A stretch of DNA of 64,000 bases, taken from an uncultured bacterium (GTDB lineage Bacteria > Elusimicrobiota > Elusimicrobia > Elusimicrobiales > Elusimicrobiaceae). The stretch is from the NCBI GenBank assembly GCA_949291545.1, contig CASEWB010000007.1, forward strand, positions 1 to 64,000, read 5' to 3'. Both the position numbers and the translations under genes were made by a program. Shown in pieces: positions 41,940 to 54,729 of this stretch. The notes under the pieces were generated by a model. The model searched no databases. It was not told the DNA's origin and saw nothing but the letters and a program-made list of their open reading frames with translations. The first letter of the stretch is position 1. Every line of letters begins with the position of its first letter.

Positions 41940-42743
41940 ATGAAGAAAATCCTTGTTTTTTTAATAGCTGTTCTGTTTTGCGCCAGTCCAACTGTGTATG
42001 CACAAAGTGCCTACCAAGTCCTTCGTACGGTATCGCGGGTTAAATTTAAAGCGGTTCCCTACGGCAAAATTTCCCGCCACCTGCAAGCCCCAATAGCCAG
42101 CCAAAAACTGGCCGAACAAGTAGCTTCTCTTACCTACCCCAGTGCCATTAAGTCTTATCCCCAAAACCGTATTAAACTGAAGGGGAGTGGTTTCTTCCTA
42201 CAGCCGGAAGTCCATATTATTACCCAGTTTGACGCGCCTATTTTATCCCACCCTTCTTCTTTGTGGGGCAGCTACCAATATATGCGCGTGCTGACTAAAC
42301 TAGCCCAACAGCCGGGCGCTATTAACCCCAAATATGCTAAAGAATGGAAGCGCCTGCATCAGGTAACTTCTTATAATGGGGTGCATCATATTGTGAACCA
42401 GCGGACGCTTAAAGCTATTTACGGCGCTATGAAACACCGCGCCGAAGCCAACCAAGAACCTTTCACCTTGCGCCTAGACGAATTGCTGCGCGGGGCACCG
42501 GCCTCGCTGCATCCTTTCCACGGGAATCCAGAGTACAAAACCTTTTTTCACAACCCGGAACGCCAAATGCAACTGTACGAAGAAGGCGGTATCCGGGCGA
42601 TTGTGGTGGATTATTTTATTTCGTTACATAGATTTCACACCAAGCACCCCAACACCGCTCCTTTTATTCCCACAGACGTAAGGAAGAACACCCTGCTGGA
42701 AGCCAAGTTGTGGGCGGAAACATTCCATCTAAAATGGAAATAA
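41940..42743 (+). CDS. Secreted protein of unknown function
   Basis: A 267-residue protein with a Sec signal peptide (residues 4-17 hydrophobic, probable cut after VYA near residue 21). The mature part is basic and rich in His, Tyr, Pro and Gln, has no further membrane segment and only few Cys. I recognise no domain. The context is a single gene with its own promoter, a long leader and its own terminator, just before the polysaccharide operon. It may be a lineage-specific periplasmic or exported protein. Confidence 0.7.
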   Translation: MKKILVFLIAVLFCASPTVYAQSAYQVLRTVSRVKFKAVPYGKISRHLQAPIASQKLAEQVASLTYPSAIKSYPQNRIKLKGSGFFLQPEVHIITQFDAPILSHPSSLWGSYQYMRVLTKLAQQPGAINPKYAKEWKRLHQVTSYNGVHHIVNQRTLKAIYGAMKHRAEANQEPFTLRLDELLRGAPASLHPFHGNPEYKTFFHNPERQMQLYEEGGIRAIVVDYFISLHRFHTKHPNTAPFIPTDVRKNTLLEAKLWAETFHLKWK

Positions 42744-42852: not shown

Positions 42853-42978
42853 TTGTTATAAAAATAGTATATAGCCGGTCCATGAAAAAGAAAGAAGCGG
42901 GGTGTTGAGCAATATAAAAAGTTGCCAAGCGCTCCATTTGTTTTTTTATTACATTTCCCGGCAGCAAAAGGAGCGCAA

Positions 42979-43758
42979 ATGAAAGTTTTACTGTTGGCGG
43001 GCGGATTAGGGTCCCGTTTGAGCGAAGAAACTGTTTTAAAACCCAAGCCGATGGTGGAAATTGGCGGATATCCCATTTTGTGGCATATTATGAAGATTTA
43101 TTCCGCCTACGGATTTGATGATTTTGTGATTTTGACTGGTTACAAATCCCACTATATCAAGGAATACTTTGTAAATTATTACCAGCGGTATTCCGATATT
43201 ACGGTGGACATGGTGAACAATACGGTTACGGTGCACAAAACGCGCCACGAACCCTGGAAAGTAACCATGCTCTACACCGGCCAAAACGCTATGACGGGTG
43301 CCCGCATTAAAAAAGCTACTCCGTATATTGGGGGGGAACCTTTCTTGCTTACCTATGGAGACGGCGTGAGCGACGTCAACATCAAAGATTTAATTGCTTC
43401 CCACCAAAAATCCGGCAAGCTTATTACAATGACGGCCGTCCAACCGATGGGCCGCTTTGGCGCCTTGACGATTAACGACCACGATGACATTACCGCATTT
43501 GCCGAAAAACCGCAAGGCGACGGTGCGTGGATTAACGGAGGCTTCTTTGTCTGCCAGCCGGAAGTGATGGATTACATCGCGCCGGGTGATGATGTGGTGT
43601 TTGAAAAAAAACCCCTCGAAACATTGGCCGCCCAAGGCCAGTTGCACGCCTATAAACATACCGGTTTTTGGCAGCCGATGGATACGATGAAAGACAAAAC
43701 CACGCTGACCGCTTTGTGGGAGCAAAACAAAGCCCCGTGGAGAGTGTGGAAGGACTGA
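42979..43758 (+). CDS. rfbF: Glucose-1-phosphate cytidylyltransferase
   Basis: A 259-residue nucleotidyltransferase making CDP-glucose, the first step to CDP-3,6-dideoxyhexoses. The N-terminal AGGLGSRLSEETVLKPKPM and the later YGDGVSDVNI match RfbF/DdhA over the whole length. The ATG at 42979 has AAGGAG 6 nt upstream; an in-frame ATG at 42922 lacks a site. First gene of the operon. Confidence 0.95.
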   Translation: MKVLLLAGGLGSRLSEETVLKPKPMVEIGGYPILWHIMKIYSAYGFDDFVILTGYKSHYIKEYFVNYYQRYSDITVDMVNNTVTVHKTRHEPWKVTMLYTGQNAMTGARIKKATPYIGGEPFLLTYGDGVSDVNIKDLIASHQKSGKLITMTAVQPMGRFGALTINDHDDITAFAEKPQGDGAWINGGFFVCQPEVMDYIAPGDDVVFEKKPLETLAAQGQLHAYKHTGFWQPMDTMKDKTTLTALWEQNKAPWRVWKD

Positions 43759-43761
43759 TTT

Positions 43762-44832
43762 ATGTGGAAAGATACCTATAAAGGAAAACGAGTTTTACTA
43801 ACGGGGCACACCGGTTTTAAAGGCGCCTGGCTGGCCCTATGGCTCAAGCGTTTGGGGGCGCAGGTGTGCGGGTACTCTTTGGCACCCAAAACCAACCCTT
43901 CTATGTTTACGGAATTAGCAATCGGCAATCAGCTGGCAAAAAGCGTGATCGCCGATATTTTAAATCCGCAGACGCTGGAACAGGTTTTTAAGGAATTTCA
44001 GCCGGAAATCGTGTTCCACCTGGCGGCGCAGCCGTTGGTGCGTTTATCGTATGCGGAACCGGTATTGACGTATCAAACCAACGTTATTGGCACGTTAAAC
44101 GTGCTGGAAGCCGCCCGCAAAACGCCTTCCGTAAAAGCTTTTGTAAATATCACCACCGATAAATGTTACGAAAATAAAGAAGTCGCCCGCGGATATACCG
44201 AGGACGAGCCTATGGGCGGGTACGATATGTATTCTTCGTCCAAAGGTTGTGTGGAGATTATGTCTTCCTCTTACCGTCGGTCTTTCCTGTCCGAAGGCGG
44301 CTTTGCGCTGGCTACGGCCCGTGCGGGCAATGTGATTGGCGGCGGGGATTGGGCGCTGGACCGCTTAATCCCGGATTGTATCCGCAATATAGAAGCCGGC
44401 AAAGAAATCGAAATCCGCTCCCCGCATGCTACCCGCCCGTGGCAGCATGTGCTGGAACCTCTTTCGGGCTATTTGCTGTTGGGGCATTTGCTCTATACCA
44501 AGGGTAAAGAATATGCCCAAGGGTTCAACTTTGGTCCCAACCCCGACAGCGTGCTGACGGTGGCCGAAGTGGCCAAGCAAGTCGTGGCCGATTATGGGCG
44601 CGGCACGGTCAAAGTGCACAAGCGCGATAATTTGCACGAAGCAAACTTGCTGATGTTGGACATCACCAAAGCCAAAACGGTGCTCGGCTGGCAGCCGGTG
44701 TATACGGCTAAGCAGGCCATTGAACAGACGGTGGCCTGGTACCAGCGGTTTTACCGGGGTGAGAAAATGTTGGGTTTTACGCTATCACAAATTGAACATT
44801 ACGAAAAGGACATTGTATGGAAAAAGAATTAA
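43762..44832 (+). CDS. rfbG: CDP-glucose 4,6-dehydratase
   Basis: A 356-residue extended SDR that makes CDP-4-keto-6-deoxyglucose. It has the NAD motif GHTGFKGAWLALWL, the catalytic Y-x-x-x-K in DMYSSSKGCVE and the expected length. It starts 3 bp after rfbF, and its end overlaps rfbH by 16 bases. Confidence 0.95.
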   Translation: MWKDTYKGKRVLLTGHTGFKGAWLALWLKRLGAQVCGYSLAPKTNPSMFTELAIGNQLAKSVIADILNPQTLEQVFKEFQPEIVFHLAAQPLVRLSYAEPVLTYQTNVIGTLNVLEAARKTPSVKAFVNITTDKCYENKEVARGYTEDEPMGGYDMYSSSKGCVEIMSSSYRRSFLSEGGFALATARAGNVIGGGDWALDRLIPDCIRNIEAGKEIEIRSPHATRPWQHVLEPLSGYLLLGHLLYTKGKEYAQGFNFGPNPDSVLTVAEVAKQVVADYGRGTVKVHKRDNLHEANLLMLDITKAKTVLGWQPVYTAKQAIEQTVAWYQRFYRGEKMLGFTLSQIEHYEKDIVWKKN

Positions 44833-46172
44833 GAGAAACTGTAAAAGAAGCCGCGCGCAACTATTACCGCGGGGTGTACGGAACCAAAAAAGAATTTGCT
44901 TATATCCCGCCGTCCGGGAAGCTTTTGGACGAAGAAGACTTGATGGGTATGATTGACGCCAGCTTGGATATGTGGCTGACGGCCGGCCGCTTTAACGACC
45001 AGTTTGAAAAAGATTTTGCCGCCTTTTTGGGTGTAAAATTTGCCCTGTCCACCAATTCGGGCTCGTCGGCCAATTTGCTGGCGCTCTCGGCGCTGACGTC
45101 TTATAAATTGGGTGAAAGACGCCTTAAAAAAGGCGACGAGGTGATTGCCGTAGCGGCGGGCTTTCCCACCACGGTCAACCCCATTATCCAGCAAGGGTTG
45201 GTGCCTGTATTTGTAGATTGCGAAATTGGCACTTATAACATCAATGCCGAACAAATTGAGGCTGCTTTAAGCCCCAAAACCAAAGCTATTTTTGTGGCGC
45301 ATACGCTGGGCAATATGTTTGATATGGGCCGCATTTTGGACATCTGCAAAAAACACAATTTGTGGCTGATTGAGGACTCCTGCGACGCTCTAGGCGCGCA
45401 GTGGAACGGCCAAAAGGCCGGTACGATTGGGCACATTGGCACGTTTAGCTTTTACCCGGCCCACCACCTGACCATGGGCGAAGGCGGTGCCGTGGTAACT
45501 AACGACCCGCAGCTCTACCGCATTATTTTGTCCTTCCGCGACTGGGGCCGCGACTGCTGGTGTAAACCCGGCACGGATAACACCTGCAAAAATCGGTTTA
45601 ATATGCAGTTGGGACACTTGCCTTTCGGTTATGACCATAAATATACTTATTCCCACGTTGGGTTCAATTTAAAAATTACCGACTGGCAGGCCGCCTTGGG
45701 CGTTAGTCAGGTTAAAAAGCTGCCCGCGTATATCCAAAAACGCACCGACAACGCGGCTTTCTTAACCCAACACCTGGCCGATTTAAGCCAGTGGCTGATT
45801 TTGCCGGAAGTCAAAAAAGAATGCCGCCCCTCGTGGTTCGGCTATTTGATTTCCGTCCGTCCGGACGCTCCTTTCACCAAGCAGCAGCTGGTGGAATACC
45901 TGGAGCAAAACGGCATTGGAACCCGCCAGCTGTTTGCCGGCAACCTCTTGCGCCAGCCTATGATGGTGGAGAACGAAATTCCGCTTCGCATCGGCAATTC
46001 GGGCGTTTTGAAATCGTGTGATTTGACGGAAAAAGAATACGCCCTCTTACCCAATACGGACTTTATTATGAACCATACTTTTTGGGTGGGCACGTTCCCC
46101 GCGCTGGGCGAAAAAGAACTAACCAAAACGTGTGAAGTCATTCACCGTTTTGTACGGGAACACACGAAATAA
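44817..46172 (+). CDS. rfbH: CDP-4-keto-6-deoxyglucose 3-dehydrase (E1)
   Basis: A 451-residue aspartate-aminotransferase-fold enzyme with PMP and a 2Fe-2S cluster that removes the 3-hydroxyl group. The pocket motif reads FYPAHHLTMGEGG, with His where aminotransferases have the PLP lysine, which is the mark of this dehydrase. Cys residues for the cluster lie in the CWCKPGTDNTCKNRF stretch. It normally needs the reductase E3 (RfbI/DdhD), which is not in this window. The end overlaps the next gene by 1 base. Confidence 0.94.
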   Translation: MEKELRETVKEAARNYYRGVYGTKKEFAYIPPSGKLLDEEDLMGMIDASLDMWLTAGRFNDQFEKDFAAFLGVKFALSTNSGSSANLLALSALTSYKLGERRLKKGDEVIAVAAGFPTTVNPIIQQGLVPVFVDCEIGTYNINAEQIEAALSPKTKAIFVAHTLGNMFDMGRILDICKKHNLWLIEDSCDALGAQWNGQKAGTIGHIGTFSFYPAHHLTMGEGGAVVTNDPQLYRIILSFRDWGRDCWCKPGTDNTCKNRFNMQLGHLPFGYDHKYTYSHVGFNLKITDWQAALGVSQVKKLPAYIQKRTDNAAFLTQHLADLSQWLILPEVKKECRPSWFGYLISVRPDAPFTKQQLVEYLEQNGIGTRQLFAGNLLRQPMMVENEIPLRIGNSGVLKSCDLTEKEYALLPNTDFIMNHTFWVGTFPALGEKELTKTCEVIHRFVREHTK

Positions 46173-47059
46173 TGCGTAAGAAAATTTTACTGACGGGCGG
46201 AAACGGTTTTATCGGCAAAAACATTCAGGAAAGTTTCTTGGCCGAAAAGTACGAAATCACCGCCCCGCGCAGCTACGAGCTTAACCTGGCTGATACGCAG
46301 GCAGTGGACGCTTTTTTTGCCACCCGTCAGTTTGATGCTGTTATTCACGCCGCTACCAAACCCGGCCACCGCAACGCCAAAGATCCTACCAACTTGTTTT
46401 ACACCAATGTGCGTATGTTTGAAAACCTGGCCCGCCATACGGACCGCTTTGGCCGGTTGATTAACTTGGGCAGCGGCGCCGTGTACGATGTATCGGCCGA
46501 TAACCGCTTGGTGCGGGAAGAAGAAATCGGCCTCCGTATGGGGAAAGACGACCACAGCTTTTGCAAATATGTGGTGCATAAGCGGATTGAAAAAATTCCG
46601 CATATGGTGGACTTAAATATTTTTGGCATTTTTGGCAAATATGAAGATTGGGAAATCCGTTTTATTTCCAATGCTATTTGCAAAACAATTTTTGGTTTGC
46701 CAATTACTCTTCGGCAGAACCGCCGGTTTAGCTACTTGTATGTAGCGGATTTGATGCCTGTCTTGGATTATTTCCTGGAGCACGACGCGCATTTTTCCAG
46801 CTACAATGTAACGCCAAACGAGGAAACGGAACTGTTGGAAGCCGCCCGCTGTATTCAAAGACTCGGCGGGAAGGATACGGAAATACGAATAGCCGCTCCG
46901 GGATATGGCCTTAACTATTCCGGGAGCAACGAAAGATTAAAAGCAGAAATCCCAGGGTTAAAATTTACACCGCTGGAAAAAGCAATCCAAGAACTATATC
47001 AGTATTATACCCGCCAGCAGGAAAAGCTTGACCCCCAATTGCTGCTTCAAGATAAGTAG
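46172..47059 (+). CDS. NAD-dependent epimerase/dehydratase family protein (sugar-nucleotide SDR)
   Basis: A 295-residue extended SDR. LTGGNGFIGKNI binds the cofactor and FCKYVVHKR carries the catalytic Tyr and Lys. It resembles GDP-fucose-synthase-like and CDP-hexose reductases. After rfbFGH it would be expected to reduce or epimerise the 4-keto group of the CDP-dideoxy sugar, as abequose or paratose synthases do; the exact product is not clear. The aldolase gene follows after 8 bp. Confidence 0.82.
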   Translation: MRKKILLTGGNGFIGKNIQESFLAEKYEITAPRSYELNLADTQAVDAFFATRQFDAVIHAATKPGHRNAKDPTNLFYTNVRMFENLARHTDRFGRLINLGSGAVYDVSADNRLVREEEIGLRMGKDDHSFCKYVVHKRIEKIPHMVDLNIFGIFGKYEDWEIRFISNAICKTIFGLPITLRQNRRFSYLYVADLMPVLDYFLEHDAHFSSYNVTPNEETELLEAARCIQRLGGKDTEIRIAAPGYGLNYSGSNERLKAEIPGLKFTPLEKAIQELYQYYTRQQEKLDPQLLLQDK

Positions 47060-47067
47060 AGGATAGT

Positions 47068-47883
47068 ATGAACACTTTAGAACAAAAAATGTTGGAAACG
47101 CTGCAGGATTTAAAAGCCAATCACCATGTAATTGGTATCAAAGCAGAATTCGAAGCGGAAGGCACCCGTTTGGAAGAAGCCCTGCGCTTGAAGGAAGTGG
47201 TAACGAAAGCGGGCTTGGATTTGATTATTAAAGTAGGCGGCTGTGAAGCCATCAAAGATATGTTTGATGCGCGCGTAATCGGTGTAAAAGGCATTGTGGG
47301 CCCTATGATTGAAACCGCCTACGCCATGACGAAATATATCAAAGCCACGGAGTTTGTGTTTCCGGAAGATGAACGGAAAGATACGGAGTTTTTTATCAAC
47401 GTAGAAACAAAAACCGGGGTGGATAATTTAGACGAAATGATGGCTTGCCCGGAATTTGACCGTCTGGCCGGCGTGGTTTTGGGCCGGGTGGATATGACGG
47501 GTTCTATGGGCTTGACGCGGGAAGATATTAATTCGGAAGTGGTGTTTAACATTGCCGAAGCCGTCAGCCGCAAAATGCAGAAAGCGGGCAAAAAGATGGT
47601 AATCGGCGGAGGCGTGTCTGCGGCGTCTTTGCCGTTCTTTAAACGCTTGCCGGCCGGCTCTTTAACCAAATTTGAAACGCGCAAAATTATTTTTGACGCA
47701 CAAGCCGCCTTGCAGGACCCAAATGCCGATAAAGGTATTTTAAAAGCGGTTGGTTTCGAACTGATGTGGCTGAAAAACAAACGCGACTTTTACGGAATGA
47801 TTTTTAAAGAAGACGCCAAACGCATTGAAATGCTGGAAGCCCGTTATAAAAAACTGATTGAACAGGCCGGCGGGCAGTTATGA
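47068..47883 (+). CDS. HpcH/HpaI (citrate-lyase-beta-like) aldolase family protein
   Basis: A 271-residue TIM-barrel protein of the pyruvate-dependent class II aldolase group. The metal-site Glu is in FINVETKTGVDN and an Asp in GRVDMTGSMGL. Known members make or break C-C bonds between pyruvate or a similar enolate and an aldehyde. Its place inside the polysaccharide operon, coupled by a 4-base overlap to an SDR and then a cyclase-like gene, argues for a biosynthetic role in sugar building rather than catabolism. Confidence 0.78.
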   Translation: MNTLEQKMLETLQDLKANHHVIGIKAEFEAEGTRLEEALRLKEVVTKAGLDLIIKVGGCEAIKDMFDARVIGVKGIVGPMIETAYAMTKYIKATEFVFPEDERKDTEFFINVETKTGVDNLDEMMACPEFDRLAGVVLGRVDMTGSMGLTREDINSEVVFNIAEAVSRKMQKAGKKMVIGGGVSAASLPFFKRLPAGSLTKFETRKIIFDAQAALQDPNADKGILKAVGFELMWLKNKRDFYGMIFKEDAKRIEMLEARYKKLIEQAGGQL

Positions 47884-48542
47884 AAACTGTGTTATTAACC
47901 GGCGGAAGCCGGGGGATTGGAAAAGCTGTTAAAAAGTTGTTTTTTGCCCGCGGATTTAAGGTGCTTGCCCCCAGCCGGGAAGAGATGGATTTGTCGGACT
48001 TATCTTCCATTGCGCGGTATACGGCCTCTCTCAAACAGGGAGTAGAGGTGTTGGTTAATTGCGCCGGAATTAACGAGCTGGCGGGTTTGGAAGAAGTAAC
48101 AGAAGAAAAAATTCAAAAGATGATTTCAGTCAATTTGCTGGCCCAGGTGCAGCTTATCCAATGGGCTTCCAAACATATGAAGGCGAAATCTTACGGCAGA
48201 ATTGTAAACTTTTCTTCTATTTGGAGTGAATTTTCCAAGCCGAGGCGTGTGTTGTATTCGGTGGCCAAGGCGGCAGTTAATGGGTTGACGACTGCAGCCG
48301 CGGTTGAATTGGCCCCGCATAATATATTGGTCAATGCAGTAGCTCCCGGCTTTGTAAATACCGAAATGACTTCCGCTAACAATACCCCCGAACAAATCCG
48401 CCAAATTACCGACCAATTGCCCATACGTCGTTTGGCCGAACCAAAGGAAATTGCTGAACTGGTATATTTCTTGGCGTCGGAGCAAAATTCGTTTATGACA
48501 GGGCAAACTTTGTTTATAGACGGAGGATTTTCATGCATTTAA
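47880..48542 (+). CDS. Short-chain dehydrogenase/reductase
   Basis: A 220-residue classical SDR: cofactor loop TGGSRGIGKAV, NCAGIN, catalytic Ser in NFSSIWSEF and Tyr/Lys in LYSVAKAAVNG, and the C-terminal DGGFSCI. It resembles 3-oxoacyl-ACP reductases but lies in a sugar operon. It could reduce the keto product of the aldolase or cyclase. It overlaps both neighbours (4 and 10 bases). Confidence 0.85.
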   Translation: MKTVLLTGGSRGIGKAVKKLFFARGFKVLAPSREEMDLSDLSSIARYTASLKQGVEVLVNCAGINELAGLEEVTEEKIQKMISVNLLAQVQLIQWASKHMKAKSYGRIVNFSSIWSEFSKPRRVLYSVAKAAVNGLTTAAAVELAPHNILVNAVAPGFVNTEMTSANNTPEQIRQITDQLPIRRLAEPKEIAELVYFLASEQNSFMTGQTLFIDGGFSCI

Positions 48543-49609
48543 ACGAGATGGACATCCATTCCCATATTCGCAATTATCAAGTAGTACTGGAAGGGACCGA
48601 TTCTTTTCTTAAAGAGCTGGCTTCTCTTTCCCCGGCGTTTTATGTAGTGGATAAACGGGTGTGGGAATTATACAAGAGCGCTTTTGCCGGTTTCCCGGAC
48701 GAAAATGTATATGTTTTGGAAGCACTGGAAGACCACAAAAATTTGGATACCGTGTGTGAACTGTATCAAAAAATACTGGCTCTTTCGCCCAAGAAGAATA
48801 TGAATTTGGTGTCCATCGGGGGCGGCATTGTCCAGGACATCACGGGCTTTGTGGCGTCCACCCTGTACCGCGGAATAAAATGGACTTTTGTTCCGACTAC
48901 CTTGCTGGCGCAGGTGGATAGCTGCATCGGGGCTAAAACATCGCTTAATTTCCGCCATTATAAAAATTTAATAGGTTCTTTTTATCCGCCGCATAAAGTG
49001 CACATTTGGCCCGGATTTTTAAATACTCTTTCTGAAGTGGATTATTATTCCGGCATTGGAGAAATGGCCAAGCTTCACTTAATGGCGGGGAAAACCCAAA
49101 CGCAGGATTTTATTGCCCATCTGCCGGCATTGGATAAGCGCGATGGGGCGGTGCTGCTTAAGTTTATTGCGGCCTGTTTGTCCATTAAAAAGGCTTACAT
49201 AGAACAGGACGAATTTGATACTGGTCTGCGCAACCTGCTTAACTACGGGCATTGTTTCGGGCACGCGTTGGAAACAGCGTCCTCCTTTAAAATTCCGCAT
49301 GGGCAGGCGGTTGTACTGGGAATGTTGTTGGCTAATGAATACGCCCGACGGGTTGGCGTATTAAGTGCAGCGGAAGAACAATTTATCCGCCGGAAAGTAT
49401 TACAGCCTATTGTAAAAGTGCCTGCCCAGGATATCCCGGCTGACAAAGAAGCCGTAGTGCAAGCTATGGGAAAGGACAAGAAAAATACAGGCCAAGGCCT
49501 GGCGTTGATTTTGCTGGAAGATAAACACCAGTTGAGGAAAATTACAGATCTGCGCCCGGACCAGGCATTGGACGTATTGGGAGAATTAAAAAAATTAGCC
49601 TATGATTAA
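48533..49609 (+). CDS. 3-dehydroquinate synthase-like sugar cyclase
   Basis: A 358-residue member of the DHQ-synthase superfamily. The NAD site SIGGGIVQDITGF and the run PTTLLAQVDSCIGAKTSLN are conserved, and the zinc ligands are visible in GEMAKLH, NYGHCFGHALE and IPHGQAVVLGM. The family closes carbocycles from ketose phosphates (DHQ synthase, 2-deoxy-scyllo-inosose and valiolone synthases). Its location suggests a secondary cyclase rather than the shikimate enzyme. GGAGGA precedes the ATG. The end overlaps the ThDP enzyme by 8 bases. Confidence 0.85.
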   Translation: MHLNEMDIHSHIRNYQVVLEGTDSFLKELASLSPAFYVVDKRVWELYKSAFAGFPDENVYVLEALEDHKNLDTVCELYQKILALSPKKNMNLVSIGGGIVQDITGFVASTLYRGIKWTFVPTTLLAQVDSCIGAKTSLNFRHYKNLIGSFYPPHKVHIWPGFLNTLSEVDYYSGIGEMAKLHLMAGKTQTQDFIAHLPALDKRDGAVLLKFIAACLSIKKAYIEQDEFDTGLRNLLNYGHCFGHALETASSFKIPHGQAVVLGMLLANEYARRVGVLSAAEEQFIRRKVLQPIVKVPAQDIPADKEAVVQAMGKDKKNTGQGLALILLEDKHQLRKITDLRPDQALDVLGELKKLAYD

Positions 49610-51431
49610 AGTTTCGGATTATTTGGTCAAAAAGTTGGAATCGTACGGTGTGCGCCAAGTGTTTATGGTTACCGGCGGCGGCGCTATGCACCTAGACGAC
49701 AGTTTTGGCAAAAGTACCAAAATTAAACGTATTTTTAACCACAACGAGCAAGCTGTTTCCATGAGTGCCGAAGGCTATGCACGCACGAACCAGCAGCTGG
49801 CGGTGGCGTGTGTGACCACCGGCCCCGGCGGCCTAAACTGCCTAAACGGCGTGTTTGGCTCTTGGACGGACAGCGCCCCGGTGTTATTTGTTTCCGGACA
49901 AGTTAAATTTTCGACGACGATGGCCTCCTGCCCGCAGGTGCCCCTGCGCCAGCTGGGCGACCAGGAAGTGGATATCGTTTCCGTGGTGAAACCTTTGACC
50001 AAATATGCCCGTATGGTGGTTGATCCATACGAAATAGATGCCGTGTTGGACGAGGCAATCTATCAGGCGGTTTCCGGCCGGCCGGGCCCGGTATGGATAG
50101 ATATTCCGCTTAATGTGCAGGCCGCGCCGGTAGACCCGAAAAAAATGAAAAAATTCCGCCGCCCGGCTGCCAAAAAAACTTCTTTGGATAAAACCGCCGC
50201 CCGGATTATGCGTATGCTGTCTAAGGCTAAGCGGCCGCTCGTTGTGGCGGGAAACGGTATTCATTGCGCTTGCGCTCAAAAGGAGCTGGGCCGCCTGCTG
50301 AGCAAAACCCAACTGCCCGTGGTTACCACTTTTAACGGGTTTGATTTGGTTTCTTCTTCGGATCCTTTGTTTGCCGGACGCATTGGTACGGTGGGCCAGC
50401 GTGCGGGCAATTTTGCATTGCAAAACGCTGATGTTATTTTGTTTTTAGGCACGCGCAATAACATCCGCCAAGCTAGTTATAACTGGGAAAATTTTGCCAA
50501 AAACGCCAAAAAAATTATCGTAGATATTGATCCGGCAGAACTCAAAAAGCCCACTGTTCACCCCGATGTGGCGGTTTGTGCCGATGTAAAAGATTTTCTC
50601 CTGGCGCTGCTGCGCCAAAAAGGCGCTTTTCAAGCTCCGGCGCAGTGGCTTTCGTTCTGCCAACAAATGAAAGCCAAATACCCGCCCCTGCGGGAGTTTT
50701 CTATCCGTCCGCAAGACAAAGTACACCCCTATTTGTTTATGCAGGAGCTGGGAAAGCAGTTGCCCCAAGGAGCGCAGGTGGTGGCTTCTAACGGAACGGC
50801 TTGTGTGGCGTTTTTCCAAGCCCTTGAATCCAAGGCGGGGCAGCGGCTATTGCTAAACTCCGGCGATGCATCTATGGGGTATGGCTTGCCGGCGGCTATT
50901 GGTATGTGCGTGGCCAATGGAGCAAAAGATACCGTCTGCCTGGAAGGCGACGGCAGCATTATGATGAACTTGCAAGAGCTCCAGACGGTAAAAACAAACC
51001 GCTTGCCAATAAAAATTTTCGTCATTAAAAATGGTGAATATATTTCCATTATCCAAACCCAGCGGAACTTTTTTAACGGACGCTTAACCGGCTGCAACGT
51101 GCAGAGCGGGGTGGAAGTGCCGGACTTTGTAAAAGTGGCTCAAGCGTTTGGTTTGCCTGCGGTGCGTATTAGCAAAAATAAAGATTTACAAGCCGGTATT
51201 CGCCGCGTGTTGGCTATGCAAGGGCCGGTGGTGTGCGAGCTGGACTGCACGCACGACTATACGTTTGCGCCCAAACTCTCCGCCCGTAAACTGCCGGACG
51301 GCACGATGGTCAGCCCGTCTTTGGAAGATATGTTCCCGTTCCTGGACCGCCAGGAAATGGAACAAAACCGGGCGGCTGCCCAGCAAATCGGGGGGAAGGC
51401 GCGCAAAAAATATGTGCGTAAACACGATTAA
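49602..51431 (+). CDS. Thiamine-diphosphate enzyme, acetolactate-synthase-like
   Basis: A 609-residue three-domain ThDP enzyme. The cofactor-activating Glu is in FNHNEQAVSMSAEGYAR and the ThDP/Mg site in EGDGSIMMNLQELQ with KNGEY about 25 residues on. It resembles acetolactate synthase large subunits, but there is no small subunit, and the gene lies in a CDP-dideoxysugar operon. The known parallel is YerE, which adds a two-carbon unit from pyruvate to a CDP-3,6-dideoxy-4-ketosugar to give yersiniose; IolD-type diketone hydrolases are another possibility. The substrate is unknown. The last 20 bases overlap the GtrA gene. Confidence 0.85.
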   Translation: MIKVSDYLVKKLESYGVRQVFMVTGGGAMHLDDSFGKSTKIKRIFNHNEQAVSMSAEGYARTNQQLAVACVTTGPGGLNCLNGVFGSWTDSAPVLFVSGQVKFSTTMASCPQVPLRQLGDQEVDIVSVVKPLTKYARMVVDPYEIDAVLDEAIYQAVSGRPGPVWIDIPLNVQAAPVDPKKMKKFRRPAAKKTSLDKTAARIMRMLSKAKRPLVVAGNGIHCACAQKELGRLLSKTQLPVVTTFNGFDLVSSSDPLFAGRIGTVGQRAGNFALQNADVILFLGTRNNIRQASYNWENFAKNAKKIIVDIDPAELKKPTVHPDVAVCADVKDFLLALLRQKGAFQAPAQWLSFCQQMKAKYPPLREFSIRPQDKVHPYLFMQELGKQLPQGAQVVASNGTACVAFFQALESKAGQRLLLNSGDASMGYGLPAAIGMCVANGAKDTVCLEGDGSIMMNLQELQTVKTNRLPIKIFVIKNGEYISIIQTQRNFFNGRLTGCNVQSGVEVPDFVKVAQAFGLPAVRISKNKDLQAGIRRVLAMQGPVVCELDCTHDYTFAPKLSARKLPDGTMVSPSLEDMFPFLDRQEMEQNRAAAQQIGGKARKKYVRKHD

Positions 51432-51840
51432 AAACGCTTTTGAGCAGTTGGTATCCCTCCTCAGCCGCCTGACGAAACTGCCTGAGCAGTTTGTGACGTT
51501 TTTGTTTGTCGGCGTGCTTAACACCCTGGTCGGATACGGGCTGTATGCGTTTTTTGTGTGGGTGGGGTGCAACTATATTTTTGCACCGTTGTTTTCCACG
51601 GTGTTGGGCGTACTGTTTAATTTTAAAACTATCGGTGTGATTGTATTTAAAAGCCACAACAACCGGTTGATTGGCAAATTCTTTGGCGTATATGGCATTG
51701 TGTATGTGTGTAATGTGCTGGGACTAAGGGGTTTAGCCGGGTGTGGGGTAACAAATATGTATGCGGCGGGAGCGATACTTGTGTTGCCGCTTGCATTATT
51801 AGGATTTATCTTAAATAAAAAATGGGTGTTTAAAGCGTAA
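51412..51840 (+). CDS. GtrA-like membrane protein
   Basis: A 142-residue protein with four hydrophobic helices; the segment EQFVTFLFVGVLNTLVGYGLY and the closing NKKWVFKA are typical of the GtrA family, thought to flip undecaprenyl-phosphate-linked sugars. I chose the ATG at 51412, which overlaps the ThDP gene; longer in-frame starts only read the shadow of that gene. GtrB follows after 1 bp. Confidence 0.85.
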   Translation: MCVNTIKNAFEQLVSLLSRLTKLPEQFVTFLFVGVLNTLVGYGLYAFFVWVGCNYIFAPLFSTVLGVLFNFKTIGVIVFKSHNNRLIGKFFGVYGIVYVCNVLGLRGLAGCGVTNMYAAGAILVLPLALLGFILNKKWVFKA

Positions 51841-51841
51841 T

Positions 51842-52783
51842 ATGAAAAAGAAAATTTCTATCGTGTCCAGTGCCTATAATGAAGAAGGAAACGTACGGGA
51901 GTTGTACGAGCAGGTAAAAGCGCAAATGACGCTTTTGGCCGATAAATACGATTATGAACAGATTGTGCTGGACAATGCCTCTACCGACGGTACTTTGGCC
52001 GTCTTGCGGGAAATTGCCACGCAGGACAAGCGGTTTAAAGTAATAGCCAATGCACGGAATTTTGGGCATATCCGCTCGCCGTATTATGGTATTTTGCAGG
52101 GGTCGGGCGATGCGGTTATTTACTTAGCGTCCGACTTGCAGGACCCGCCTTCCTTGATTCCTCAGTTTGTTGCCGCGTGGGAACAAGGCTATAAGGTGGT
52201 TTTAGCGCAAAAACAAACCAGTAAAGAATCGCTGGTATTTTTTGCCGTGCGGCGTTTGTATTATCGGCTGCTAAATTGGGTGAACGATTCCGGCGCCAAG
52301 CTGGAGCCTAACTGCACGGGGTTTGGCTTATACGATAAATGCGTAATCGAAGAGCTGCGCAAATTACAAGATCCTTACCCGTATTTGCGCGGACTGGTGT
52401 GCGAGTTGGGCTATGCGCATAAACTTATCCCGTTTGAACAACCCTTGCGGAAGCGTGGGTTTACCAAAAATAATTTCTATACGCTTTACGATAACGCTAT
52501 GATTGGTTTTACCAATCACTCCAAAGTGCCGCTTCGCTTGGCGGCGCTGGGTGGGTTTGCGTTGGGGATAATCAGCCTGTTTTTAGCGATGGTGTATTTG
52601 GTGCTGAAGCTTCTTTATTGGGAACGATTCCCGATGGGGACGGCGCCTTTGTTGTTGGCTGTGTTATTCTTTTCCAGTGTACAGTTGTTTTTTATTGGTA
52701 TTATTGGGGAATATATCGGCGCTATTTTAACGCAAGTACTAAAGCGCCCTTTAGTGATAGAAAAAGAACGGATTAACTTTTAA
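51842..52783 (+). CDS. GtrB-like glycosyltransferase family 2 (polyprenyl-phosphate sugar transferase)
   Basis: A 313-residue protein with a GT2 domain (SAYNEEGNVRELYEQ, LDNASTDGT, the D-x-D-like ASDLQDPPSL) and two C-terminal membrane helices, the build of GtrB/ArnC/DPM1. It would load a sugar onto undecaprenyl phosphate. With GtrA before it and a large membrane protein after it, the trio matches O-antigen side-branch modules. Confidence 0.88.
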   Translation: MKKKISIVSSAYNEEGNVRELYEQVKAQMTLLADKYDYEQIVLDNASTDGTLAVLREIATQDKRFKVIANARNFGHIRSPYYGILQGSGDAVIYLASDLQDPPSLIPQFVAAWEQGYKVVLAQKQTSKESLVFFAVRRLYYRLLNWVNDSGAKLEPNCTGFGLYDKCVIEELRKLQDPYPYLRGLVCELGYAHKLIPFEQPLRKRGFTKNNFYTLYDNAMIGFTNHSKVPLRLAALGGFALGIISLFLAMVYLVLKLLYWERFPMGTAPLLLAVLFFSSVQLFFIGIIGEYIGAILTQVLKRPLVIEKERINF

Positions 52784-52785
52784 TT

Positions 52786-54729
52786 ATGTGGAAAAAATTC
52801 AAACGGTTGATTGTTAAACATAAAACGTATTTATTGGGTTTGGCCAGTGTACTGGTGGGAACTTTGTTGTTTGTGGCTTTGTTTTGGAACAAATCTATTA
52901 CATTGGTGGAAGGTTGGTACAACCTGTATGCCCAGTTTATTTTGCAGGAAGGATTGGTCCCCTATAAAGACTTTCCCTTAATTGTGCCGCCCATTGCGCT
53001 TGGTTTGTGGACGGTGGTCCAAGCCGTTTTTGGAAATACCTTGGTGGTGTTTCGGGTTATGGATATTGGAGTTAAGCTCGTTTTGGGCGGGTCGTGCTAT
53101 CATTTGTTTACCCGTTTCTATTCCGAAAAAATTGCCGCCTTGGGGGCAATTATAGTCAATTTTATTCTTATGTCCGCCATTTACGATAACGGCGTTCCTT
53201 CGTATAACATCTATGCGGTTATCTTGTGTGTGTGGCTGATTATTGCGGGGCGGGCGTTTTTGAAACAATTGTTTGTTAAAAATACCATTAGCAACGGAGC
53301 GCTTTGGGGAATTGGAACCTTGTTCGCCTTGTCTTTCCTTAACAAACAAACTTCCGGTCCGCTGACGATTATTGCAGTGTGTGCCGTGCTGCATTTGGCG
53401 GTATGGCGCCAGAAAGGCTTTAAAGAGATGTGCAAAGTATTTTTGAAGCTCTTGGCGTCTTCCTTAGTAGTTGTGGGGCTGGTGTGGATTGCTTTGGCTG
53501 TGTGGGGGTGTTTGCCGGATTATTTGAACCAGATTTTTATGTCGGAATCCAAAGGCAGCGTGGGGGATATTTTCTTCCGGCGGATTGTGGAGATTTTTGT
53601 TTCTTACGCTTTTGTGCGGGCACTGTTATTGGGAGGAATAATCAGTTTTATTATACAGGTGTTGGTTTCCAATAAAATTTTGCGCTTGTATAAAACCCCT
53701 TCGTTTATGATGAACAAAAAACGCATGGGCCTTTTTGTTCTTTGCGTGCTGGGCGGTATTTTGGCGGCCATTGGCTGCGCCTGGATAAAAACCGCTCATT
53801 CGGTACCGCAATACAATTTCCATTTGTCCACTTACAGTGGTAATATAAATGCTTTTATTATAGCGGGGTTGTGCTTATTTGTGTTTTTATGTTTGTACAG
53901 TACGCTGATGGTTTTGTTTGTGAAAAAACGGACTTACCGTGTATATGCCGAACTTTTACTGTATATCACTTTCCTGGCGTTAACTTATTCATTAATTTTG
54001 AGCTACGGCTATCCCGTGACGTATCCTTTTGTGTTGGCGGTGGTGGTGTGCTTTTTGCTTAAACAAAGAATCCAATGGAATTGGGCTAAAGATATGTTGC
54101 TGTTGGGTTTGGTAGGGATAGTGGCGTTCTTCTGCATTTCTATGAAGCTAGAAAGTCCTTCACTCTTTTATGGGTGGCGTGCCGGCAGTGTGGTGCAGCC
54201 TTTGGAAAAATCGTTTATCCCGGCATTGCGCGGATTAAAACTCCCGCTGGAAGAAAAGAAAATGCTGGAAGACATCTATACGGAGGTGCAGCACTATACA
54301 AATCCGTCCGATCCGATTTTGGCTTTTAATAACAACCAGGTGTTTTATCTGTTGCTCAATCGGCCTCCTTATACACGCTATGTTTCCTATTATTATGACG
54401 TGTCGCCGGACAGCCAGTCCTTGCGAACAATTGAGAAAATGAAACAAGGCCTCTTGCCTAAAGCCATTGTATATTTGCGTTTTCCTGAATGGGTTCGTGC
54501 TTTTCACGAGCAAGCTTTTAGAGATGGCCAGCGTTCAGGGCAGCGCCAACTGGACGAGTATATCCAACATTTAATTGATTCTGGCGTATATAAAGTGATT
54601 CGCCATTATGAAAAGAAATCCGCCAAAAACGGGAAATTTGAAAATTCCTTTTTGGAAGACGGTTTTTCGCTGGAGCTTTTGGTGAAAAATATGCAATCTA
54701 GTAAAAGGGGAAAATCTTATGACAAATGA
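52786..54729 (+). CDS. Large integral membrane protein, probable GT-C type transferase of the gtr module
   Basis: A 647-residue protein with about twelve hydrophobic helices and a soluble C-terminal region of about 150 residues. In gtr modules the third gene is a serotype-specific, poorly conserved membrane glycosyltransferase that takes the lipid-linked sugar made by GtrB; position and build fit that role. An early luminal stretch WNKSITLVEGWYNLYAQ may hold the acidic residue typical of GT-C enzymes. I recognise no named family. The DNA from here to about 55,700 is more A/T-rich than the flanks. The end overlaps the next gene by 11 bases. Confidence 0.7.
   Translation: MWKKFKRLIVKHKTYLLGLASVLVGTLLFVALFWNKSITLVEGWYNLYAQFILQEGLVPYKDFPLIVPPIALGLWTVVQAVFGNTLVVFRVMDIGVKLVLGGSCYHLFTRFYSEKIAALGAIIVNFILMSAIYDNGVPSYNIYAVILCVWLIIAGRAFLKQLFVKNTISNGALWGIGTLFALSFLNKQTSGPLTIIAVCAVLHLAVWRQKGFKEMCKVFLKLLASSLVVVGLVWIALAVWGCLPDYLNQIFMSESKGSVGDIFFRRIVEIFVSYAFVRALLLGGIISFIIQVLVSNKILRLYKTPSFMMNKKRMGLFVLCVLGGILAAIGCAWIKTAHSVPQYNFHLSTYSGNINAFIIAGLCLFVFLCLYSTLMVLFVKKRTYRVYAELLLYITFLALTYSLILSYGYPVTYPFVLAVVVCFLLKQRIQWNWAKDMLLLGLVGIVAFFCISMKLESPSLFYGWRAGSVVQPLEKSFIPALRGLKLPLEEKKMLEDIYTEVQHYTNPSDPILAFNNNQVFYLLLNRPPYTRYVSYYYDVSPDSQSLRTIEKMKQGLLPKAIVYLRFPEWVRAFHEQAFRDGQRSGQRQLDEYIQHLIDSGVYKVIRHYEKKSAKNGKFENSFLEDGFSLELLVKNMQSSKRGKSYDK

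Follow-up and report, generated by a model that had tools for sequence, protein, structure and literature searches.

A candidate operon for a caryophyllose-type branched deoxysugar in an uncultured Elusimicrobiaceae bacterium

We analysed positions 1 to 64,000, forward strand, of contig CASEWB010000007.1 (assembly GCA_949291545.1), from an uncultured bacterium of the family Elusimicrobiaceae; "the window" denotes this whole stretch. It holds a sugar operon in which three genes for a cytidine diphosphate (CDP)-deoxyhexose and one for a short-chain dehydrogenase/reductase (SDR1) precede a four-gene cassette for an aldolase (ALD), a second short-chain dehydrogenase/reductase (SDR2), a homologue of dehydroquinate synthase (DHQS) that we call CYC, and a thiamine diphosphate (ThDP) enzyme. 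We propose, with a probability of roughly 0.64, that the product of this operon is a CDP-activated 3,6-dideoxyhexose branched at C4, akin to caryophyllose and made by the route set out below.

Genes of the operon and their assignments

The operon and the three genes that follow it, all on the + strand, are:

42922..43758, +: rfbF/ddhA, glucose-1-phosphate cytidylyltransferase (TIGR02623, 395.8 bits, cut-off 300)
43762..44832, +: rfbG/ddhB, CDP-glucose 4,6-dehydratase (TIGR02622, 475 bits, cut-off 278)
44817..46172, +: rfbH/ddhC, C3 deoxygenation of CDP-4-keto-6-deoxyglucose (NF011936, 670 bits, cut-off 423)
46172..47059, +: SDR1, extended SDR (PF01370)
47068..47883, +: ALD, divergent HpcH/HpaI class II pyruvate aldolase (PF03328, 48.9 bits)
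47880..48542, +: SDR2, FabG-like SDR (PF13561, 157.8 bits)
48533..49609, +: CYC, DHQS homologue (TIGR04425, 408.6 bits, cut-off 400)
49602..51431, +: YerE/JanthE-like ThDP carboligase (PDB 8rph, 399.7 bits over residues 2-591)
51430..51840, +: GtrA-like membrane protein, start approximate (PF04138, 48 bits)
51842..52783, +: family 2 glycosyltransferase (GT2), undecaprenyl-phosphate glycosyltransferase-like, PgfS/ArnC-like (NF047588, 184 bits, below cut-off)
52786..54729, +: polytopic membrane protein of 647 aa with about 12 transmembrane segments (hydropathy; no Pfam match)

From rfbF to the ThDP gene the operon is a single run with no gap longer than 8 bases, and the four cassette reading frames overlap by 4, 10 and 8 bases. 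An earlier note on this DNA had described four overlapping genes placed after rfbF-rfbG-rfbH and an SDR, and coordinates and profile scores confirm that description.

The ThDP protein matches JanthE (PDB 8rph), the closest solved enzyme, over its full length, scoring 399.7 bits versus 259.8 bits for the best acetolactate synthase (AHAS). It lies under every AHAS cut-off listed (347 bits for IlvB, where the cut-off is 538) and carries a GDG-X25-N motif. A quick tree, made without bootstrap from a set that lacked YerE itself, splits the cassette enzymes from AHAS with 100% support in the approximate likelihood ratio test (SH-aLRT). The earlier assignment to a YerE-like class therefore holds, and such an enzyme would decarboxylate a 2-keto acid and add the remainder to C4 of a CDP-4-ketosugar. 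At least one rfb gene is present in 59 of the 71 ThDP loci that we collected (numbered with the other loci as L020, L025 and so on), many of the remainder being short contigs. An inositol-type identity was rejected, IolD not being among the NCBIfam matches listed. One cluster has a second, more distant YerE-like ThDP gene (L113:11005-12759, minus strand).

CYC falls in TIGR04425, a family titled "AroB-related putative sugar phosphate phospholyase (cyclizing)", and scores 268.6 bits against the aroB model TIGR01357, under its cut-off of 305. It shares the AroB fold and, as the earlier note stated, the complete set of zinc ligands (E177, H240, H256); indeed 14 of 14 DHQS metal- and substrate-binding residues are retained. 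Among them are K250 and R264 (A. nidulans numbering), which we take to bind the carboxylate of 3-deoxy-arabino-heptulosonate 7-phosphate (DAHP) in DHQS. The sole active-site change is T272 to C in most members, at Cys241 of CYC, giving GHC for GHT. Against solved structures CYC scores at most 147 bits for DHQS, 111 for 2-deoxy-scyllo-inosose synthase (DOIS) and 104 for the cyclase 4p53; a sedoheptulose 7-phosphate cyclase or DOIS identity was rejected because DHQS scores higher and the carboxylate binders are kept. In a quick tree, again without bootstrap, the cassette cyclases form a clade separate from AroB (99% SH-aLRT); L071 and L072 group with AroB and were excluded from the cassette members.

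It could be argued that CYC and the ThDP protein are housekeeping AroB and IlvB, placed by chance in a sugar operon. The host genome (1.55 Mb, 92% complete) yielded no other AroB-like or AHAS-like gene, and the earlier note had taken such a lack of second copies, together with grouping among AroB and IlvB, as grounds for abandoning its idea. The first half of this was found and the second was not: both proteins are under the AroB and AHAS cut-offs, both trees set them apart, and neither chorismate synthase nor IlvD was found in the host genome by searches that were positive in 14 of 14 controls, which leaves the host without the shikimate and branched-chain amino acid pathways. Moreover, 17 of 20 other CYC-bearing genomes hold a separate, true AroB above cut-off (316-402 bits, versus 239-280 for the cassette copies). 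Short of missing sequence, the housekeeping explanation is already refuted, and its residual probability is negligible.

ALD has a weak match to Pfam HpcH_HpaI (48.9 bits, above cut-off). The best PDB matches of its AlphaFold2 model (mean predicted confidence, pLDDT, 94) are HpaI class II pyruvate aldolases, followed by pyruvate kinases, with TM-scores of 0.52-0.58 that indicate a distant match at superfamily level. HpaI-type aldolases and pyruvate kinases all bind pyruvate or phosphoenolpyruvate (PEP), and the metal ligands E113 and D142 of ALD are invariant. The HpcH-like label of the earlier note is thus sound, and we infer that ALD makes a 3-deoxy-2-ulosonate phosphate from pyruvate.

On the 3' side of the cassette, the GtrA-like, GT2 and 12-segment proteins are followed by more glycosyltransferases and another epimerase. 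The GtrA-like protein would be part of a flippase, and the 647-aa protein is a possible GtrC-type transferase. A GtrA family gene adjoins the cassette in about 19 loci. Just 5' of rfbF (41940-42743, +) lies a gene for a 267-aa protein with one N-terminal hydrophobic segment and no Pfam match. The closest database relatives of the host are gut Elusimicrobia metagenome-assembled genomes (MAGs).

Conservation and exchange of the donor genes

Scanning genome contigs with CYC gave 73 loci. Translated searches revealed that the set rfbF/G/H-SDR1-ALD-SDR2-CYC-ThDP, often with GtrA and GT2, recurs with variable gene order and constant content. It is found in Elusimicrobia, Gastranaerophilales, Alpha- and Gammaproteobacteria, Spirochaetes, Bacteroidota, Chlorobi, Omnitrophota, Lentisphaerae, Actinomycetota, Chloroflexi, a Micrarchaeota archaeon and others. 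An arrangement kept in dozens of genomes from unrelated phyla is not due to chance. SDR1 adjoins the ThDP gene in many loci, and SDR1 or another extended SDR is present in many clusters. Two contigs carry archaeal labels, L046 (Micrarchaeota, with the cassette) and L057 (Thermoplasmatales, with a CYC-SDR2 pair), reflecting either cross-domain transfer or binning error. Plasmid and phage searches yielded no named isolate with the whole cassette; a Novosphingobium plasmid has rfbF-rfbG-ALD only, and an Ilyobacter match to ALD was set aside as a catabolic locus. In the Alphaproteobacteria L124 and L125, an orphan ALD lies beside waaA-/lpxK-like genes with no branched-sugar genes nearby.

The ALD position behaves as a slot. 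We compared the 71 distinct ThDP loci, leaving out L102 (aldolase on the opposite strand) and two truncated contigs. A single slot enzyme is present in 70 of them, namely ALD in 54, a NeuB-like enzyme in 13 and an HMGL-like enzyme in 3, and none carries two; the only locus without a slot enzyme is L148, from Mycobacterium. This exclusivity was reached in none of 20000 presence shuffles, the shuffle maximum being 58. The NeuB and HMGL cases were found by searches seeded with the cyclase or the ThDP enzyme. The HMGL-like enzyme is most similar to 4-hydroxy-2-oxovalerate aldolase and occurs in L033, L058 and L074, the last from a cultured Alistipes strain; these are the loci with neither ALD nor NeuB and sufficient flank. 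The ThDP tree requires 11 or more changes of slot identity: NeuB fills the slot in L109 and L110, which belong to the same genus as the window's host, and the sister rows L112 and L113 have ALD and NeuB, respectively. HpaI-, NeuB- and DmpG/HMGL-type enzymes are unrelated, but the known chemistry of each family starts from pyruvate or PEP and yields 4-hydroxy-2-keto (2-keto-3-deoxy) acids. This common product suggests that the slot makes a 2-keto acid; decarboxylase-family ThDP enzymes take 2-keto acids as donors. Two tandem HpcH-like aldolases stand 5' of SDR2-CYC in L025 and L030, and likewise in L032, where masked bases cut the region.

SDR2 accompanies CYC in 60 of 60 cyclase-bearing ThDP loci and never occurs without it. 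Where a slot enzyme is present and SDR2-CYC is absent, a phosphatase of the haloacid dehalogenase superfamily (HAD) is present in 7 of 10 loci, four of the seven belonging to one clade. These phosphatases are of two kinds, HAD_2 (L107 and Mycobacterium L138-L141) and NagD/HAD-IIA (Bacteroidota L117 and L120). With L108, in which ALD lies beside HAD_2 with no ThDP gene in range, the exchange spans at least three lineages. Among loci that were not CYC-seeded, HAD occurs in 0 of 10 with CYC and 7 of 10 without (hypergeometric 120/77520, about 0.0015); over all slot-bearing loci the Fisher p is 7.7e-7, a value inflated by seeding. The presence of HAD where SDR2-CYC is missing indicates that both fill one place, phosphate removal, by hydrolysis in one case and elimination in the other. 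SDR1 is retained in L117 and L120, suggesting that reduction of an exocyclic ketone is needed with or without CYC.

The same comparison bears on the idea that the operon has two products, with ALD, CYC and SDR2 making a quinate-like carbocyclic acid that decorates the glycan and the ThDP enzyme separately forming a sugar of the yersiniose type from pyruvate. Intact DHQS residues would suit such an acid, and L148, which has a ThDP gene and rfbFGH without a donor module, resembles yersiniose loci. However, ALD accompanies ThDP without CYC in L107, L117 and L120, no conserved acyl-activating or acyl-transfer enzyme was found around the cassette, and the one-for-one co-occurrence of donor enzyme and ThDP enzyme would be left unexplained. 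We regard two products as very unlikely.

SDR2-CYC also occurs without a ThDP gene, beside a 2-hydroxyacid dehydrogenase, a Gfo/Idh oxidoreductase, a SIS isomerase and PseF/NeuA-like cytidylyltransferases. NeuA/PseF-like cytidylyltransferases activate 2-ulosonates, and these neighbours fit the making and cytidine monophosphate (CMP) activation of a 2-ulosonate, possibly by an undescribed CMP-ulosonate pathway. Pairs with neither ThDP nor aldolase (L040, L041, L047, L048, L055, L057, L060-L065 and L075) have varied neighbours, Gfo/Idh/MocA and SerA-like 2-hydroxyacid dehydrogenases among them. An FGGY-type sugar kinase gene lies beside CYC in the Elusimicrobia L109, L110 and L111 and in the Mycobacterium L142, L145 and L147; the kinase may supply the phosphate.

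Mycobacterial loci and the proposed route

To our set we added 218 genomes of a Mycobacterium-type genus, picked by the Myco_19_kDa family. A YerE-like ThDP gene is present in 11 of them (435-698 bits versus at most 380 for IlvB). The loci have a common skeleton, rfbF-GT2-ThDP against rfbH-rfbG-GtrA, in which the GT2 homologue adjoins the ThDP gene. The donor modules are ALD-SDR2-CYC (L142, L145, L147), NeuB plus HAD (L138-L141), NeuB (L144, L146), ALD (L143) and none (L148). Across L138-L148 the ThDP/CDP-sugar skeleton stays the same and the donor module beside it is the main difference, which makes these loci a natural series from which to predict side chains.

The loci with the whole module read rfbF-GT2-ThDP-ALD-SDR2-CYC and are of the lipooligosaccharide (LOS) type. 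Genes of polyketide synthase and MmpL size are also present in the L145/L159 region, as are the primer sites for M. marinum mmpL12 (PMC12507525), with 1-2 mismatches and about 3.4 kb apart. We judged relatedness by these primer sequences, and together with the polyketide synthase- and MmpL-sized genes they mark L145 as the LOS-type locus of a close relative of M. marinum. In M. marinum itself, the addition of caryophyllose to LOS stops when MMAR_2331, MMAR_2332 (the ThDP enzyme) or MMAR_2333 (a glycosyltransferase) is deleted; by gene order in the relative's locus, MMAR_2331 would occupy the ALD position. Caryophyllose is 3,6-dideoxy-4-C-(D-altro-1,3,4,5-tetrahydroxyhexyl)-D-xylo-hexopyranose (PMC5706390; PMC7821131). 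Its chain corresponds exactly to a 3,7-dideoxy-hept-2-ulosonate minus CO2 (CHOH, CH2, three CHOH, CH3), which is our predicted donor after decarboxylation.

The proposed route is as follows. By family assignment, RfbF, RfbG and RfbH would provide CDP-3,6-dideoxy-4-ketoglucose. ALD would join pyruvate to an aldose phosphate, in the simplest case a tetrose 4-phosphate, giving a 3-deoxy-2-ulosonate 7-phosphate. CYC would bind this ulosonate as DHQS binds DAHP, oxidise C5, eliminate the C7 phosphate, re-reduce C5 and release a 3,7-dideoxy-2,6-diulosonate with no lasting carbocycle, whose C6 ketone SDR2 would reduce to leave a 2-keto acid with a terminal methyl group. Judging from YerE, ErwE and JanthE, the ThDP enzyme would remove CO2 from the acid and couple the remainder to the ketone at C4 of the CDP sugar. 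SDR1, predicted to be YerF-like, would then reduce the new exocyclic ketone, and GT2, GtrA and the large membrane protein would place the sugar on a surface glycan. Because ALD appears to exchange with NeuB- or HMGL-like enzymes and CYC plus SDR2 with a HAD phosphatase, one ThDP step could attach different chains. We infer the reactions of this route, the aldehyde partner, the non-cyclisation, the stereochemistry and the final sugar.

The earlier note had predicted a C-C-branched sugar carrying a carbocycle. Its branched half, a dedicated CDP-3,6-dideoxyhexose route, stands; the carbocycle is probably wrong. CYC and SDR2 stand between one enzyme that makes 2-keto acids and another that consumes them, and are exchangeable with a phosphatase, which fits an open-chain, methyl-ended branch better. 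The unchanged substrate residues, K250 and R264 included, suggest that CYC takes the free 2-ulosonate phosphate before decarboxylation, and a DHQ-type product, being no longer a 2-keto acid, would be unable to feed the ThDP enzyme. The ThDP-less loci, the retention of SDR1 in L117 and L120 despite the loss of SDR2-CYC, and the fit of caryophyllose to a phosphate-eliminated, 6-ketone-reduced C7 donor likewise favour an open chain.

A carbocycle could still arise if the ThDP enzyme transferred a phosphorylated chain, CYC then closed a ring on the exocyclic ketone, and SDR2 reduced the resulting cyclohexane. Every ring-closing catalytic residue of DHQS is present in CYC, the swap of CYC for HAD would suit a phosphorylated branch equally well, and non-cyclisation is proven by no sequence feature. 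Yet the substrate would already be decarboxylated while the carboxylate binders are invariant, no ketone would be left for the SDR1 or other extended SDR kept in many clusters, SDR2-CYC occurs in loci with no ThDP enzyme, and caryophyllose, the known sugar that fits the module, has an open chain. We consider this sequence of events unlikely.

Another possibility is that the chain differs, through a triose or pentose phosphate partner or another CYC deoxygenation, so that the product is a new homologue or stereoisomer of caryophyllose. The low identity to the mycobacterial enzymes would allow this, and three donor enzyme types and tandem aldolases suggest that chain length may vary, but a tetrose phosphate is the favoured partner, since CYC has lost none of the contacts through which DHQS holds its C7 substrate. 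A different chain thus seems rather improbable.

Several observations weigh against a caryophyllose-type product made through an open chain. The DHQS enolpyranose intermediate can reportedly cyclise unaided (Bartlett and Satake, 1988), so that non-cyclisation would need active control, which would be unusual; a DHQS active site conserved in full would be just as compatible with true ring closure. One locus (L020) carries both HAD and CYC, and three (L143, L144, L146) carry neither. ALD-seeded loci hold ALD, and CYC-seeded loci CYC, by construction, and the cyclase-first search pattern contained NYGHCFGH, biasing it to the cysteine variant. The placement of MMAR_2331 as ALD follows from the relative's gene order. 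Finally, the mycobacterial CYC and ThDP proteins share only 34-36% identity with those of the window, which leaves room for a different product.

Relation to known sugars and significance

The closest known system is caryophyllose in M. marinum LOS (MMAR_2331-2333), with which the operon has in common the CDP-deoxyhexose genes, the YerE-like ThDP enzyme and GT2; related LOS-type loci share the ALD-SDR2-CYC module. It differs in its host, a gut Elusimicrobia-like MAG, in protein identities of 34-50%, in the presence of SDR1 and in being one compact operon. Literature accessible without subscription contained no description of roles for ALD, SDR2 or CYC in caryophyllose synthesis, nor of a pathway with exactly this gene set, the novelty of which the earlier note had surmised. 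Gastriose from M. gastri has a seven-carbon chain, and we predict that it would fit the NeuB plus HAD type with a donor like 3-deoxy-manno-octulosonate (KDO).

In yersiniose A synthesis YerF, an SDR, acts after YerE. The ThDP step is alike there, being an acyl addition to CDP-3,6-dideoxy-4-ketoglucose (PMC12247030); pyruvate is used directly, and no aldolase, SDR2 or cyclase is needed. The same source describes erwiniose, for which ErwE prefers 4-hydroxy-2-oxo acids, the aldol products of pyruvate, as donors; the erwiniose chain is shorter, and a cyclase homologue is not reported in the text consulted. JanthE has CDG in place of the GDG motif, and PMC12188165 gives its physiological substrate as not known.

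Bradyrhizose and caryose are rare sugars built through C-C bonds. Both are carbocyclic or fused; there is no ring evidence here, and the gene set is no match.

The operon probably encodes a variant of the YerE-type branched sugar pathway, a known kind, with a possibly new enzyme activity. We lean slightly towards the view that the TIGR04425 enzyme acts on a 3-deoxy-2-ulosonate phosphate, from which it eliminates the phosphate with no lasting ring closure, and, with its SDR, forms a terminal deoxygenation module, an interchangeable part of a widespread kit for 2-keto acid donors (YerE-type, or with CMP-sugar activation where there is no ThDP enzyme). Since the DHQS intermediate can close spontaneously, an enzyme that avoids the ring would be unusual and therefore of interest. 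If this is true, a hypothetical family gains a specific, testable reaction, and the side chain of caryophyllose, a C12 sugar found in the glycolipids of mycobacteria, gains a proposed origin. Enzymes that form tertiary alcohols would acquire new tools in the donor modules. From gene content alone, a large number of branched sugars not yet seen would be predicted in many phyla of bacteria and in some archaea.

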